From Cocleimonas flava (GTDB taxonomy: Bacteria; Pseudomonadota; Gammaproteobacteria; Thiotrichales; Thiotrichaceae): DNA of 64,000 nucleotides. Shown piece after piece: positions 52,168 to 57,516 of this stretch. A program made the translations under genes and the position numbers. The stretch is from positions 1,241,351-1,305,350 of the forward strand of contig NZ_SMFQ01000002.1 in the NCBI RefSeq assembly GCF_004339015.1, read 5' to 3'. A model generated the notes under the pieces. The model was given only the letters and a program-made list of their open reading frames with translations, had not been told where the DNA came from and did no database searches. Numbering within the stretch: position 1 is the stretch's first letter; each line of letters opens with the position of its first letter.

Positions 52168-52182
52168 GGTTTAACAGTATTG

Positions 52183-52209
52183 AGACTTAGTCAGTGGATG
52201 AAAAGTCAC
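52183..52209 (-). promoter_or_regulatory. Candidate ECF promoter of the sigma gene
   Basis: On the minus strand: GTGACTTT (52209-52202), a 12-nt spacer, TAAGTCT (52189-52183). It shares both boxes and the exact spacing with the element at 52442-52468. The start codon is only 16 nt downstream, so the mRNA would have a very short leader. Confidence 0.6.
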
Positions 52210-52441
52210 AAAAATATCTTCTCTTATACGGTGATTCTGGCTTTTTCTCTTTTTAGCAAAAACAGAAAAGTCTAATTATTGTGTTAAAGGGATTAATTAT
52301 TGTTGGGTTTCTCGTGGGTTCAGTAAGTAATTGGCTTGCTTAAATAACGTTGCAACAGCCATGTAAATAGGCGTTTAACAGAACACTTATGACTGATTGT
52401 ATCGATTTGTTTGCTTATTTGTTATTTTTTTAATTATTTTT

Positions 52442-52468
52442 GTGACTTTCTGAAATGTGCCTAAGTCT
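52442..52468 (+). promoter_or_regulatory. Candidate ECF promoter of the outer-membrane protein gene
   Basis: GTGACTTT (52442-52449), a 12-nt spacer, TAAGTCT (52462-52468). The spacer sequence is unlike that of the partner promoter while the boxes are identical, as expected for conserved sigma contacts. The leader would be about 80 nt. Confidence 0.62.
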
Positions 52469-52554
52469 AATTATTGAATCCGATAATTTATCGGTAATTT
52501 TAAAAGCTCTTTTAGGAAAGAGTTAAGTGACTTTAATAACAAAGGTATTACTCC

Positions 52555-53727
52555 ATGAAAAAACAAAATGTACTAACTGCTGCTGTAATGATGGCTTTCT
52601 CAGGAACAGCATTTGCTGAGCCTTTAATTACTGACTACAAAGAAGCAACTTCTGCGTATGAAGATGCTTATGTGTCTGGTAACTTTAACTCAAACGATGG
52701 TAATCAGGATCAGGCTAGCTATAACCTGGACCTAACATTGGACTACGAGAAAGTATTCAGCTCTCCAAACCGTAACACTAAAATCGACTTTTTGGGCACA
52801 GGCTCTTCTGCTAAAGGCGGAAATGATGGCGATAAGAGCTCAAGCACTTATCAGGCATTAGGTTCAGCAACAGTAGATAACTACTTCACACCGAATAGCA
52901 ATGCAGGTTTTTGGTATGGTAAAGGCGAAGTTGGCGTTCAAAAAGATCAGGAAGACCCGTTCACAAAAGCAACAGCAGGTATCGGTTATGGCCGTGTTGT
53001 TAACGTAACGCCAATGGCTTATGCAATCAGAATCATGCAAAAACTTCGTGAAGATGGATTTTTGAAAGCTGACCCTAGCAATGATATTTACCAGCAAGTT
53101 GCAGTAATTGTAGATAAAGAGTCTGAGTACAAGTCTAAGTACGGCCTTAAAGATTATAAGCAATACTGGTTACAGGATATTCAGAAAGTTATTGAGACTT
53201 CTGGAATGGTTAAAGGCGACTTTAATGCAAGAGCCGTTGTTCAGACTTACGACGTATTAGAAAACGAGCGTGTTTCTACACGTAAAAACGGTTGGTTAGT
53301 GCGTGCAGGTGTTGGTGCGGTATTAAGTAACTACGACGGTTCAGATGGAAAACCAGCGTTGGAAGTGGGTGCTGAATACCACAGACCAATTAACAACAAG
53401 ACACAGTTCTCAAATGAAGCGATTGCAACAGCTACATTAGATGATGATGACAACGGTTATAACTTCAATAACGCGATGAGTTTAACCTACGAATTGTCTG
53501 ACTTGATCGATTGGGAAAACAAATGGACGTTAGCGTATGCAACATCTGACGATACAGATGATGTTACAACGAACACATTAAGTTCTGCGTTTTACTACAG
53601 CCTAACTAACCAACTTGATTTTGGTGTAGAGGGCAAGTTAACCAAGCTTGATGACAGCATTTCTAATAATGGCAATGACGACGTTGATAAGAGTTTAACA
53701 ATGGGTGTTAAGTACCGTTTGAAGTAA
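52555..53727 (+). CDS. Outer-membrane beta-barrel protein of unknown family
   Basis: The 390-residue protein has a signal peptide (MKKQNVLTAAVMMAFSGTAFA, cleaved near residue 21). Its many amphipathic strands are rich in Gly, Tyr and Asp (for example FWYGKGEVGVQK, GWLVRAGVGAVLSNY, ALEVGAEYHRPI, LDFGVEGKLTKL), ending LTMGVKYRLK. A more helical insert lies near residues 155-220. This looks like an outer-membrane barrel of about 14 strands with a plug or extracellular part. I recognise no named family. The upstream promoter element ties it to the ECF sigma factor. Confidence 0.72.
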   Translation: MKKQNVLTAAVMMAFSGTAFAEPLITDYKEATSAYEDAYVSGNFNSNDGNQDQASYNLDLTLDYEKVFSSPNRNTKIDFLGTGSSAKGGNDGDKSSSTYQALGSATVDNYFTPNSNAGFWYGKGEVGVQKDQEDPFTKATAGIGYGRVVNVTPMAYAIRIMQKLREDGFLKADPSNDIYQQVAVIVDKESEYKSKYGLKDYKQYWLQDIQKVIETSGMVKGDFNARAVVQTYDVLENERVSTRKNGWLVRAGVGAVLSNYDGSDGKPALEVGAEYHRPINNKTQFSNEAIATATLDDDDNGYNFNNAMSLTYELSDLIDWENKWTLAYATSDDTDDVTTNTLSSAFYYSLTNQLDFGVEGKLTKLDDSISNNGNDDVDKSLTMGVKYRLK

Positions 53728-54036: not shown

Positions 54037-56334
54037 TCAACTAGACTCAGACTCATCTTTAGTTTCATTTTGCATGTGTACCACTCGCTGAGGGAATGGT
54101 ATTTCAATACCTTCTTTTCTAAATGCTCTATCAATACTCAGATTTATATCACTGTGAATCAGTAAGCGCTCATCAACGTTTCTTACATAACAACGAAGCT
54201 CGAAGTTTAATGAACTGTCCCCAAATTCTAAAAATAAAGCACGAACACGATAGTCAGGTTGATCAGCAATGACGTCAGGATGCTCGGCAGCGATATTTTT
54301 TAAAATCTCGATGACCTTATCAACATCCGATCCGTAAGCGACACCCACAGGAGCTACCAGACGTCCCACGTTATTGGTCAGCATCCAGTTTGTTACTTGA
54401 TTGGAGATCAGTTCTGAATTGGGTACAATCACATCTGCACGGTTGAAGGTTTGTATGGTTGTGGAGCGAATGCTGATATCTCTGACATAGCCTTCGGTGC
54501 TACCTACTACAACCCAATCACCACGACGAATAGGGCGTTCAAATAGAAGTATTAAACCAGACACAAAGTTGTTAACGATATTTTGTAAGCCGAAACCAAT
54601 ACCAACAGATAACGCACCAGCGATTATCGCTATATTTTGAAAGTTGACACCTAATATGAATAGTGCCCAGATGATTGCCACTGCAACACCCACATAACCG
54701 ACTAAAGTCTGGGTTGCTTCTTTAGCGCCTCGGCTTAAGTTACTGTGCTTTAACCAGCTAGTAACCAGATTGTTTTTAATAAAAGGCAAAATACCCAGAG
54801 CGATTATCAGAACGACTAAAGCGTAAACGATATTGAGTAAGTCAAAGTTCATTGACCCGATTGAAATACCAGATTTCAAAGTGGTTAATAAAGAGGATAT
54901 ACGTTGCTGTGAACTCCCCCAGATATACATTAAGGCAGAAACGCTGGCGAACAGAACAGCGAAGAAAAATAAGATTCGTAACCAGATCACACCCGGAAAC
55001 GCTTTATCTTCTTCAATGCTCATTACCGTGCGTAGTTTCTTCTGCCAGGGAAGTTTGCCTTGATCCAGGCTGTCAAATAATTCGCTACTGATACGCAGCA
55101 AAGTAAAGGCGAAGACAAACACAACCGCTGATAACAATGTTCCTAAATACAGAAGGCTGGCAAAATTACGATAGCCTAATAAAGCAGCAAATACCGCAAT
55201 GAACATCGTCCCGATGGGGATAAGTAATGCAGGCGTGTAAGAGCGTTTAATAGATATATTGCGAATCGCTAACCAGATTAAACAAATAATACTGAACGCA
55301 CCCAGCGTTAAGGCAGAGAGCCAGATTAAATAAAGCGTAATTGAATTGGAAAAACGACCGACTGCAGGGTCGTTGAGCAATATCAGCATTCCACTAAATA
55401 TGATCGTGCCCCATACAAATAATAAGATGGTGCTTCTTGAAAGTATGGGAGTAGAGGAGAATGGTTTTTCAGGAAATAACAGGCCGCGTATGACGGCAAA
55501 AGTTAAAATCAGTACAAATAACATCCTGATAAATTGAATCAAAGCAGATTGCGATGTGGATTGCGAATACAGATAAATGAGGATGAAAAGTGTGGTTATC
55601 AGTGCAGGTGAGGTGCGCCTGATTCCCCTTATTACCGCCAACATGGTTGGGCTAGAAAAATGAGCTGTAGTGGCCTTCTTGGGTTTTGCATTACGGCGCC
55701 ATAACAGGCCGAGTAAAATCCCTACAATCAGAAGCAGTAGTAATGGCCAGCTAAGAGCCTGGTAAGTTTTTTCAGTTAACGGTTTAATGACGGCGAGTTC
55801 TTTTTCTCCCGTTAATTCATTTAAGGTACCTATTTTTTTAACTGCAGCCCAAATCGAAATTTCCTTGCTGAGGAGTTGTTTTTTAAGCAGGTTTAGCCTG
55901 AGTTCTGAAGAGGCGTCACTGATTTCTTTGAGTTGTATTTTTAACAGACTACAGCGTTTTAATTCGTTATCGGCTGCCTGGGATTGTTTTTCGAGTTCTT
56001 GACGCTTAACTTTGATATCAAATTCATCAGTGGTTTGACCATCGCCCAGTAGCTTTAAATTATCTTTAAGGCTTGTTGTTAGGGTTGTATTAGTAGTGAT
56101 GCATTCATCGAGCTTCAGTTCTAGTTCGGTGAATGCTTTTTGTTGCTCATCAATATCCTGAACGCTTAGCTTATTTAACTCATCCGCTGCCTTTAACGCA
56201 TTAAATTGAGTGTTGATCTTGTCGAACATTTTTTGCAGGTCGACTTCATTTTTGGATTCTGCAAATAAGGTAAATGAAGTCGCCAATAGCAAAGAAACTA
56301 TTATGGAAAGAAATAAGCGTTGAAAGTTGCGCAA
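54037..56334 (-). CDS. MscK/MscM-like large mechanosensitive channel
   Basis: The start is a TTG with AGGG upstream. The 765-residue protein has a signal peptide (cleaved after TLFA, about residue 25) and a periplasmic helical domain (about 28-185). About ten membrane helices follow, then a C-terminal MscS core with ALSVGIGFGLQNIVNNFVSG, RPIRRGDWVVVGSTEGYV and VIVPNSELIS. It is smaller than E. coli MscK (about 1120 residues) because the periplasmic domain is shorter. Confidence 0.9.
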   Translation of the reverse strand: MRNFQRLFLSIIVSLLLATSFTLFAESKNEVDLQKMFDKINTQFNALKAADELNKLSVQDIDEQQKAFTELELKLDECITTNTTLTTSLKDNLKLLGDGQTTDEFDIKVKRQELEKQSQAADNELKRCSLLKIQLKEISDASSELRLNLLKKQLLSKEISIWAAVKKIGTLNELTGEKELAVIKPLTEKTYQALSWPLLLLLIVGILLGLLWRRNAKPKKATTAHFSSPTMLAVIRGIRRTSPALITTLFILIYLYSQSTSQSALIQFIRMLFVLILTFAVIRGLLFPEKPFSSTPILSRSTILLFVWGTIIFSGMLILLNDPAVGRFSNSITLYLIWLSALTLGAFSIICLIWLAIRNISIKRSYTPALLIPIGTMFIAVFAALLGYRNFASLLYLGTLLSAVVFVFAFTLLRISSELFDSLDQGKLPWQKKLRTVMSIEEDKAFPGVIWLRILFFFAVLFASVSALMYIWGSSQQRISSLLTTLKSGISIGSMNFDLLNIVYALVVLIIALGILPFIKNNLVTSWLKHSNLSRGAKEATQTLVGYVGVAVAIIWALFILGVNFQNIAIIAGALSVGIGFGLQNIVNNFVSGLILLFERPIRRGDWVVVGSTEGYVRDISIRSTTIQTFNRADVIVPNSELISNQVTNWMLTNNVGRLVAPVGVAYGSDVDKVIEILKNIAAEHPDVIADQPDYRVRALFLEFGDSSLNFELRCYVRNVDERLLIHSDINLSIDRAFRKEGIEIPFPQRVVHMQNETKDESESS

Positions 56335-56442: not shown

Positions 56443-57516
56443 TCATAACCATTTTTTTCGTCTGAAATAGATAAGCAAACCAACACCTACCACGATGAAA
56501 ATAACCCATAGTATAGGATATGCCAGTCGCCATTGAAGTTCTGGCATGTATTCGAAGTTCATTCCATACACGCCTGCTATGAAAGTAAGGGGTATGAATA
56601 TCGATGCGAATACGGTTAATACCTTCATTACTTCATTCATTTTGTTGCTGATGCTGGTTTGATACATATCCATCAAGCCATAAACCATGTCTCTTTGTAG
56701 CTCTATGGTTTCTGAAATCCGCAATACATGGTCATACACATCTCTGAAATAGATTTGCGTTTTTTCTTCAATCAGCGGGCTTTCTACTCTAAGTATAGAA
56801 TTTAATAATTCTCGTAACGGTGAAACGGATCTACGAATATAAATCAGCTCGCGTTTTATATTCTGAATACGTTTTAGTGTGTCCGCCCCCGGGTTTAGCA
56901 ATAATTCTTCTTCTATTGAATCGATAATCTCATCTAACGATTCAAGCAACGCAAAATTCTGGTCAATAATACTGTCCAGTATTGCATAGGTTAGATAGTC
57001 AGGTCCCAGTCCTCTAATTCTATTTTTACTGTTTTGAATGCGTTTTTCTATAGGCTCAAATAAATTGTCCTTTTTTTCCTTGAAGGTAAACACAAAATTA
57101 TTGAGTAGCAGAATACTAATTTGCTCATAGATGACGGTTGAATTTTTGTTTTCTAGAAAAAGCCCCTTCAGAACGATGTATTGATAGTCATCATAGTCTT
57201 CAAATTTTGCTCGTTGGTGTGTATTTAGAATATCTTCCAGTACCAATGGGTGAATGTTAAATGCTTGGCCAATAGATTCGATGATTTCTATATTTTTTAA
57301 ACCTTCTACATTTACCCAGGTAACGGAATTCTTATCTTTGAATTTTAAGATGTCATCGATCGATTCAACGTCCATAACTTCACCCGAATTTTTGGTGTAA
57401 TCGATGATAGTAATATGCTGGTCCTGATCATGAATATCACCAATATGGATCAAAGATCCTGGTGACATGCCGACTTTCTCAGATATGTTGGTTGAATTTT
57501 CTATCATTTTTTTCAC
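56443..57516 (-). CDS. corA: CorA-family Mg2+/Co2+ transporter
   Basis: The 357-residue protein has a large cytosolic N-terminal domain and two C-terminal TM helices. The selectivity-loop GMN occurs as FIAGVYGMNFEYMPEL near residue 320, followed by a basic C-terminus. It forms a pentameric Mg2+ channel. It is co-directional with the DedA gene 91 nt upstream. Confidence 0.95.
   Translation of the reverse strand: MKKMIENSTNISEKVGMSPGSLIHIGDIHDQDQHITIIDYTKNSGEVMDVESIDDILKFKDKNSVTWVNVEGLKNIEIIESIGQAFNIHPLVLEDILNTHQRAKFEDYDDYQYIVLKGLFLENKNSTVIYEQISILLLNNFVFTFKEKKDNLFEPIEKRIQNSKNRIRGLGPDYLTYAILDSIIDQNFALLESLDEIIDSIEEELLLNPGADTLKRIQNIKRELIYIRRSVSPLRELLNSILRVESPLIEEKTQIYFRDVYDHVLRISETIELQRDMVYGLMDMYQTSISNKMNEVMKVLTVFASIFIPLTFIAGVYGMNFEYMPELQWRLAYPILWVIFIVVGVGLLIYFRRKKWL

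Follow-up and report, generated by a model that had tools for sequence, protein, structure and literature searches.

A SigX-like ECF sigma factor of Cocleimonas flava is very probably an autoregulated envelope sigma factor with a small regulon, reading as promoters two matched bipartite sites between its own gene and a divergent outer-membrane barrel gene. Both sites lie in the 64,000-nt stretch of DNA that was analysed here, referred to as the window.

A matched pair of sites between the sigX-like gene and a barrel gene

Searching the window for the pattern GTGACTTT-N12-TAAGTCT revealed two mismatch-free copies on opposite strands (Table 1). The initial annotation, made from the sequence alone, had described just such a pair, i.e. 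15 box bases and a 12-nt spacing shared by both strands, one site before an ECF sigma gene and the other before a barrel gene, with differing spacers. All of this was borne out: the gap between site and ATG measures 15 bases at the sigma gene and 86 bases at the barrel gene, and the two spacers differ from each other. Two further elements in the intergenic region were considered and set aside. A 13-base repeat, AGTCTAATTATTG, occurs at 52269-52281 and 52464-52476, its second copy overlapping the -10 box of the predicted barrel promoter; it was dropped as a meaningful element, the first copy not being conserved in the related genome G007. A lone GTGACTTT at 52527-52534, just before the barrel start and lacking GTCT at N15, is changed in G007 and thus probably due to chance.

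Table 1. Genes and predicted promoter elements (window positions, except for the rhodanese-domain gene)
Feature	Position	Strand	Remarks
MscS-type channel, CmpX-like, 281 aa	50419-51264	minus	Pfam MS_channel_1st_1, MS_channel_2nd
CfrX-like small protein, 74 aa	51316-51537	minus	C-terminal half hydrophobic (by eye); no Pfam match
SigX-like ECF sigma factor, 193 aa	51586-52167	minus	Pfam Sigma70_r2 and Sigma70_r4_2 above cut-off
Predicted sigX-like promoter	52183-52209	minus	GTGACTTTTCATCCACTGACTAAGTCT
-35 box of predicted sigX-like promoter	52202-52209	minus	GTGACTTT
-10 box of predicted sigX-like promoter	52183-52186	minus	GTCT
Predicted barrel-gene promoter	52442-52468	plus	GTGACTTTCTGAAATGTGCCTAAGTCT
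-35 box of predicted barrel-gene promoter	52442-52449	plus	GTGACTTT
-10 box of predicted barrel-gene promoter	52465-52468	plus	GTCT
Outer-membrane barrel protein, 390 aa, DUF481-like	52555-53727	plus
Rhodanese-domain gene	L003:1785-2537	plus	257 bases from CNNM promoter site

The sigma protein has the make-up of an ECF factor, with regions 2 and 4 in a protein of about 190 aa. A profile search detected SigX-like factors in 14 of the 63 genomes of the order (hereafter sigma-positive), all with E-values of 7.8e-83 or better, followed by a gap to 1.1e-25. In all 14 a CfrX-like gene lies between sigX and an MscS-type gene. When compared with CfrX of Pseudomonas-type genomes (a label given from the gene order of locus L251), the profile of the small protein aligned over most of its length with an E-value of 7.4e-5, a probability of 62 and 11% identity; the MscS-type gene of the window matches its counterpart in the Pseudomonas-type locus at E 7e-45.

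Pfam DUF481 was matched by three of eight barrel homologs (best 9.1e-10), the window copy itself not being among them, and the window protein matched neither OprF nor OmpA. Its structure model suggests 14 strands at a mean pLDDT of 69. A fold search returned general porin-like matches, OmpG being the best, with TM-scores normalized by query length of at most 0.43 among the best 50 matches listed; a PHROGs scan of the protein found nothing. Between strands 6 and 7, residues 153-236 (window 53011-53262) are predicted to form a helical insertion; judged by strand parity, it might face the periplasm. Just before this insertion all eight homologs share the conserved stretch GYGRVVNVTPMA, in which the first G and the residues following it are invariant. 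A gene for a large MscS-type channel of 765 aa (54037-56334, minus strand) converges on the barrel gene and is followed by a CorA gene (56443-57516, minus strand); the ~6 kb around sigX thus hold two genes for mechanosensitive channels and one for CorA. A single contig scan for named relatives yielded 80 loci, none of them closely related: identity over most of the query protein did not exceed 34%.

The conserved core of the site

Throughout the genome of 4,491,576 bases, the 15-base pattern is matched exactly by the window pair and nowhere else. Allowing one mismatch added three sites, one of which precedes a gene; searching with the reversed pattern as control gave none. To define the core we aligned 25 sites of sigma-positive genomes, 15 from barrel genes and 10 from sigX genes; this table leaves out all CNNM sites (see below) and the sigX site of G035, which is identical to that of G019. 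TGACTTT is present in all 25 sites and the first G in 24; in the -10 box TC is found in 25/25, G in 19/25 and the last T in 16/25, and the TAA preceding GTCT is not conserved. Judged from this alignment, the core is GTGACTTT as -35 box, 15 bases and GTCT as -10 box, not the full 15-base pattern. Related genomes support the initial prediction as a promoter reading, but the pattern has to be shortened by its TAA.

Three exact matches to GTGACTTT-N15-GTCT occur in the C. flava genome, located before sigX, before the barrel gene and before a gene for a CNNM/CorC protein. With up to one mismatch there are 39 in all as compared to 40 for the reversed control, i.e. no excess. Of the 36 matches that are not exact, 23 fall within open frames of 150 or more codons. 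For the remaining 13, a mechanical rule assigned a downstream gene in one case; a gene with a longest frame overlapping the site may be overlooked by this rule. Because the one-mismatch count is at background level, the signal resides in the exact sites and not in the loose pattern; the latter was therefore rejected as sole ground for naming targets. Frequent matches inside genes without upstream bias, which the initial annotation had named as evidence against its reading, are accordingly a property of the one-mismatch pattern and not of the three exact matches.

Pooling the 14 sigma-positive genomes gave 28 exact sites, hardly more than the 24 for the reversed control, three genomes having no exact match. 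These 28 comprise 11 sites at barrel genes, three at sigX, three at CNNM genes, one at a rhodanese gene, two at a gene divergent from sigX (G070, G072) and eight that are inside genes or have no evident link. The gene divergent from sigX in G070 and G072 is left unassigned: blast did not identify it as MscS-type, nor did a Pfam search with the 416 aa visible for the G072 copy. In the 18 of 49 sigma-negative genomes used for this count, there were three exact sites versus 17 for the reversed control.

The barrel-gene site follows the sigX-like gene

The barrel family is present in 48 of the 63 genomes, and upstream regions of 52 barrel genes were scored by the best match to the 12 core positions within 350 bases. 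All 13 sigma-positive genomes scored (one copy per genome) have a site with 11 (four genomes) or 12 (nine genomes) matches; its spacing is always N15, and it starts 75-119 bases upstream of the gene. The 32 sigma-negative genomes score at most 10 of 12; two of these 32 upstream regions are only 58 and 138 bases long. Shuffled sequences score 11 in 0.1% of trials. The contrast between sigma-positive and sigma-negative genomes is complete within each of four genera (2 vs 6, 5 vs 6, 3 vs 3 and 3 vs 5), corresponding to a stratified exact P of 6.9e-8, a value that treats genomes of one genus as exchangeable although they are not independent. The other 12 sigma-negative genomes come from genera without a SigX-like factor.

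The fourteenth sigma-positive genome, G067, has no barrel match. Seven extra barrel copies in sigma-positive genomes were also scored, two with a full site and five without; partial hits (G073, G078, G011, the second copy of G066, and G017 on contig C3) were not scored. The second barrel-family gene of C. flava itself (L195, G000:C2:662099-663286, outside the window) has no SigX-like site upstream.

These data also bear on the sites being promoters of RpoE (AlgU/sigma-E), which we consider very unlikely. The AlgU consensus is given as GAACTT-N16/17-TCTNN (PMC7641640), a geometry close to that of the sites described here, with similar spacing and the same TCT end, and the C. flava genome carries an rpoE-rseABC-like operon on contig C3, named from sequence and gene order. 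The -35 boxes differ, however, reading GAAC in RpoE/AlgU promoters and GTGAC here. At least one ECF match was found in 61 of the 63 genomes, irrespective of the SigX-like factor, and therefore 47 of the 49 genomes without this factor have another ECF gene (RpoE identity being examined in the C. flava genome only); yet none of the 32 scored has a barrel site. Moreover, GAACTT-N16/17-TCT scores at most 7 of 9 in the 13 sigma-positive barrel upstream regions, and 29 of 30 Pseudomonas-type loci retain GTGAC upstream of cfrX (see below). RpoE was therefore rejected as owner of the sites, which follow the SigX-like gene and not other ECF genes. No rseA-type gene was found beside the sigma gene of the window, where the next gene encodes the 74-aa protein. 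Within the 32 sigma-negative barrel upstream regions, GAACTT-N16/17-TCT is perfect in two and matches at 8 of 9 positions in four; judging from these sequences, RpoE may have taken over control of the barrel gene in some lineages.

Sites stay with their genes when gene order changes

An N15 site with 10-12 of 12 matches is located 42-50 bases before sigX in 11 of the 14 sigma-positive genomes, the sigX start of G071 being assumed in this count. Genus g5 retains only TC of the sigX -10 box, with 10 of 12 matches. The three genomes without a sigX site all belong to genus g7 and have sigX immediately behind the barrel gene, in the same orientation; in one of them, G017, the contig carries only the end of the barrel gene. 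In the window, where the sigX ATG follows the -10 box after just 15 bases, the leader must be very short, and as the 42-50-base distance is kept in 11/14 genomes, translation of sigX from a very short leader is possible. By eye, no obvious ribosome-binding site precedes the sigX ATG (window 52168-52182).

Gene order itself varies. Barrel gene and sigX are divergent in the window and in L015, L019 and L020; in L016 and L018 the barrel gene is followed by sigX; and in L021 and L022 barrel and CNNM genes are divergent, with a site on each side. As read from these loci, the sites stay with the genes when gene order changes. The autoregulation proposed at the outset is thus supported by a site that keeps its place before sigX in most genomes and moves with its genes through rearrangement.

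The same observations speak to whether the pair could be a duplicated binding site of a repressor or activator instead of a promoter element. Two identical bipartite sites sharing one intergenic region would suit such a regulator, but not the N15 spacing, the asymmetry resembling -35 and -10 boxes and the fixed orientation towards each gene; besides, single sites occur before CNNM genes and before barrel genes far from sigX, and site presence follows the sigma gene. We regard this alternative as less probable still. Chance similarity or a recent local duplication, to which the background level of loose matches might point, is refuted by conservation and can be given almost no weight, considering that the spacers of the window sites differ, that both sites are conserved in G007 with changed spacers, and that 13/13 sigma-positive stand against 0/32 sigma-negative genomes.

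CNNM/CorC and rhodanese genes as further predicted targets

The third exact GTGACTTT-N15-GTCT lies 36 bases before the CNNM/CorC gene, ~12 kb away and beyond the right end of the window. The encoded protein has CNNM, CBS and CorC_HlyC domains. Among seven sigma-positive genomes having an ortholog, six carry an N15 site at 61-77 bases; CNNM of G067 has only an N16 site, 171 bases upstream. The site is absent in both sigma-negative orthologs and in six distant paralogs examined; five of the 14 CNNM-type hits (G075, G080, G081, G082 and the second hit of G026) were not scored. In a comparison of site hits outside long frames, covering 39 of 39 hits in C. flava and 30 of 47 in G007 (those with loci), sigX, the barrel gene and CNNM were the only downstream genes common to both lists.

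A rhodanese-domain gene is divergent from CNNM in C. flava (G000) and in G022, with sites of 10 and 12 matches, respectively; the equivalent position in G007 holds a site with 11 matches. On this sequence comparison the rhodanese gene is likely a fourth target of the SigX-like factor, and CNNM and rhodanese genes probably constitute a second divergent pair under the same factor. The initial annotation had predicted one target besides the sigma gene: this prediction is supported for the barrel gene, whose site comes and goes with the sigma gene in four genera, but at least one more target, CNNM/CorC, and probably two would have to be added.

Relationship to SigX of Pseudomonas

The best NCBIfam model for the sigma factor is SigX (PRK09640 equivalog) at 136.4 bits; because this score is below the curated cut-off of 194, we use the name SigX-like. 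In a midpoint-rooted tree of the 14 proteins and three SigX-type rows versus five other ECF factors of C. flava, several branches being long, the 14 fall together with a Pseudomonas-type SigX and two further SigX-like sequences (support 98/97), apart from the five other ECFs. A SATKM motif near the C-terminus is common to the 14 proteins and Pseudomonas-type SigX of G223 and is absent from the RpoE-like protein of C. flava.

In the comparison locus L251, a CorA-type gene, cfrX, an MscS-type gene, sigX and OprF lie in a row. We examined 30 of the 49 CfrX-positive genomes (those with loci) and found GTGAC-N18/19-GTC 52-55 bases before cfrX in 29 of the 30 loci, the spacing being N18 in 28 and N19 in one, as compared to 0.035 sites per 30 loci expected from shuffles. 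The exception, L254, has GTGACTTT-N14-GTCT at 97 bases before cfrX. Upstream of sigX in these CfrX loci, no equally clear site was seen. The window sites share the GTGAC-N18-GTCT geometry with the Pseudomonas-type cfrX sites.

SigX of P. aeruginosa (ECF102; cmaX-cfrX-cmpX-sigX-oprF) and the factor described here thus have in common the tree group, a CfrX-like protein, a CmpX-like MscS channel and a nearby outer-membrane gene; GTGAC-N18-GTC is shared with Pseudomonas-type cfrX upstream regions. Unlike in P. aeruginosa, sigX comes first here and has a site of its own, a divergent DUF481-like gene stands in place of OprF as outer-membrane gene, the CorA gene stands apart, and the sigma protein falls below the NCBI SigX cut-off. 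SigX has been assigned to ECF102, with CfrX as putative anti-sigma factor and a proposed mechanosensing complex with CmpX and OprF (PMC8999054). Transcription of cfrX-cmpX is reported to be SigX-dependent in P. aeruginosa; a cfrX start mapped there by 5'RACE lies at -208, not at the site found here, and another published start, with a 13-base leader, lies nearer to it (PMC7641640). The same source describes the SigX consensus as not precisely defined. A SigX logo appeared as a figure in a 2015 study (PMC4362757), and for fatty-acid operons one report states no discernible SigX consensus, also noting a ~two-fold higher activity of a sigX reporter without NaCl (PMC3875570). Overexpression of cmpX in P. 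aeruginosa is reported to have left sigX and cfrX transcripts unaltered, although its authors see a hint of partial SigX activity (PMC10965496).

Autoregulation has been called a hallmark of ECF factors, and SigAb of Acinetobacter resembles the SigX-like factor in being an ECF factor that regulates itself and has few direct targets, with three sites; it differs in its boxes (-35 GTCAAC, -10 CGTT) and in having the anti-sigma genes aabA and aabB (PMC12153292). In the literature searched, we recognised no published description of the promoter outside Pseudomonas, and the motif is not claimed here as unpublished.

A model for the SigX-like regulon

According to our model, RNA polymerase carrying the SigX-like factor would read both window sites as promoters. 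The minus-strand site would drive sigX and, as gene order suggests, the CfrX-like and MscS-type genes behind it, resulting in positive autoregulation. The plus-strand site would drive the divergent barrel gene and the third exact copy the gene for the CNNM/CorC membrane protein. By analogy with Pseudomonas SigX, the CfrX-like protein may hold the sigma factor inactive, the MscS-type channel may report membrane tension or composition, and envelope stress would then raise barrel and CNNM protein jointly with the sigma factor and its regulators. The sequences themselves establish exact, conserved sites of fixed spacing and orientation that co-occur with the sigma gene; transcription by the SigX-like factor, positive autoregulation and the operon structure are what we infer from them; anti-sigma action of the CfrX-like protein and tension sensing by the channel are put forward more tentatively, these roles being putative even in Pseudomonas (PMC8999054).

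On comparison of the two groups, GTGAC-N18-GTCT is likely to be the ancestral promoter of SigX-type (ECF102-like) factors, kept between the Cocleimonas family and Pseudomonas-type bacteria. An unrelated DUF481-like barrel would have replaced OprF as outer-membrane partner; on this view the CfrX and CmpX neighbours and the DNA specificity form a stable core, and the outer-membrane target is exchangeable. The comparison provides a sharp, testable promoter with a predicted regulon of three or four genes in a relative. The motif could help to separate direct from indirect SigX targets, and the proposed link between MscS-type channel, CfrX and sigma factor becomes testable by a simple reporter.
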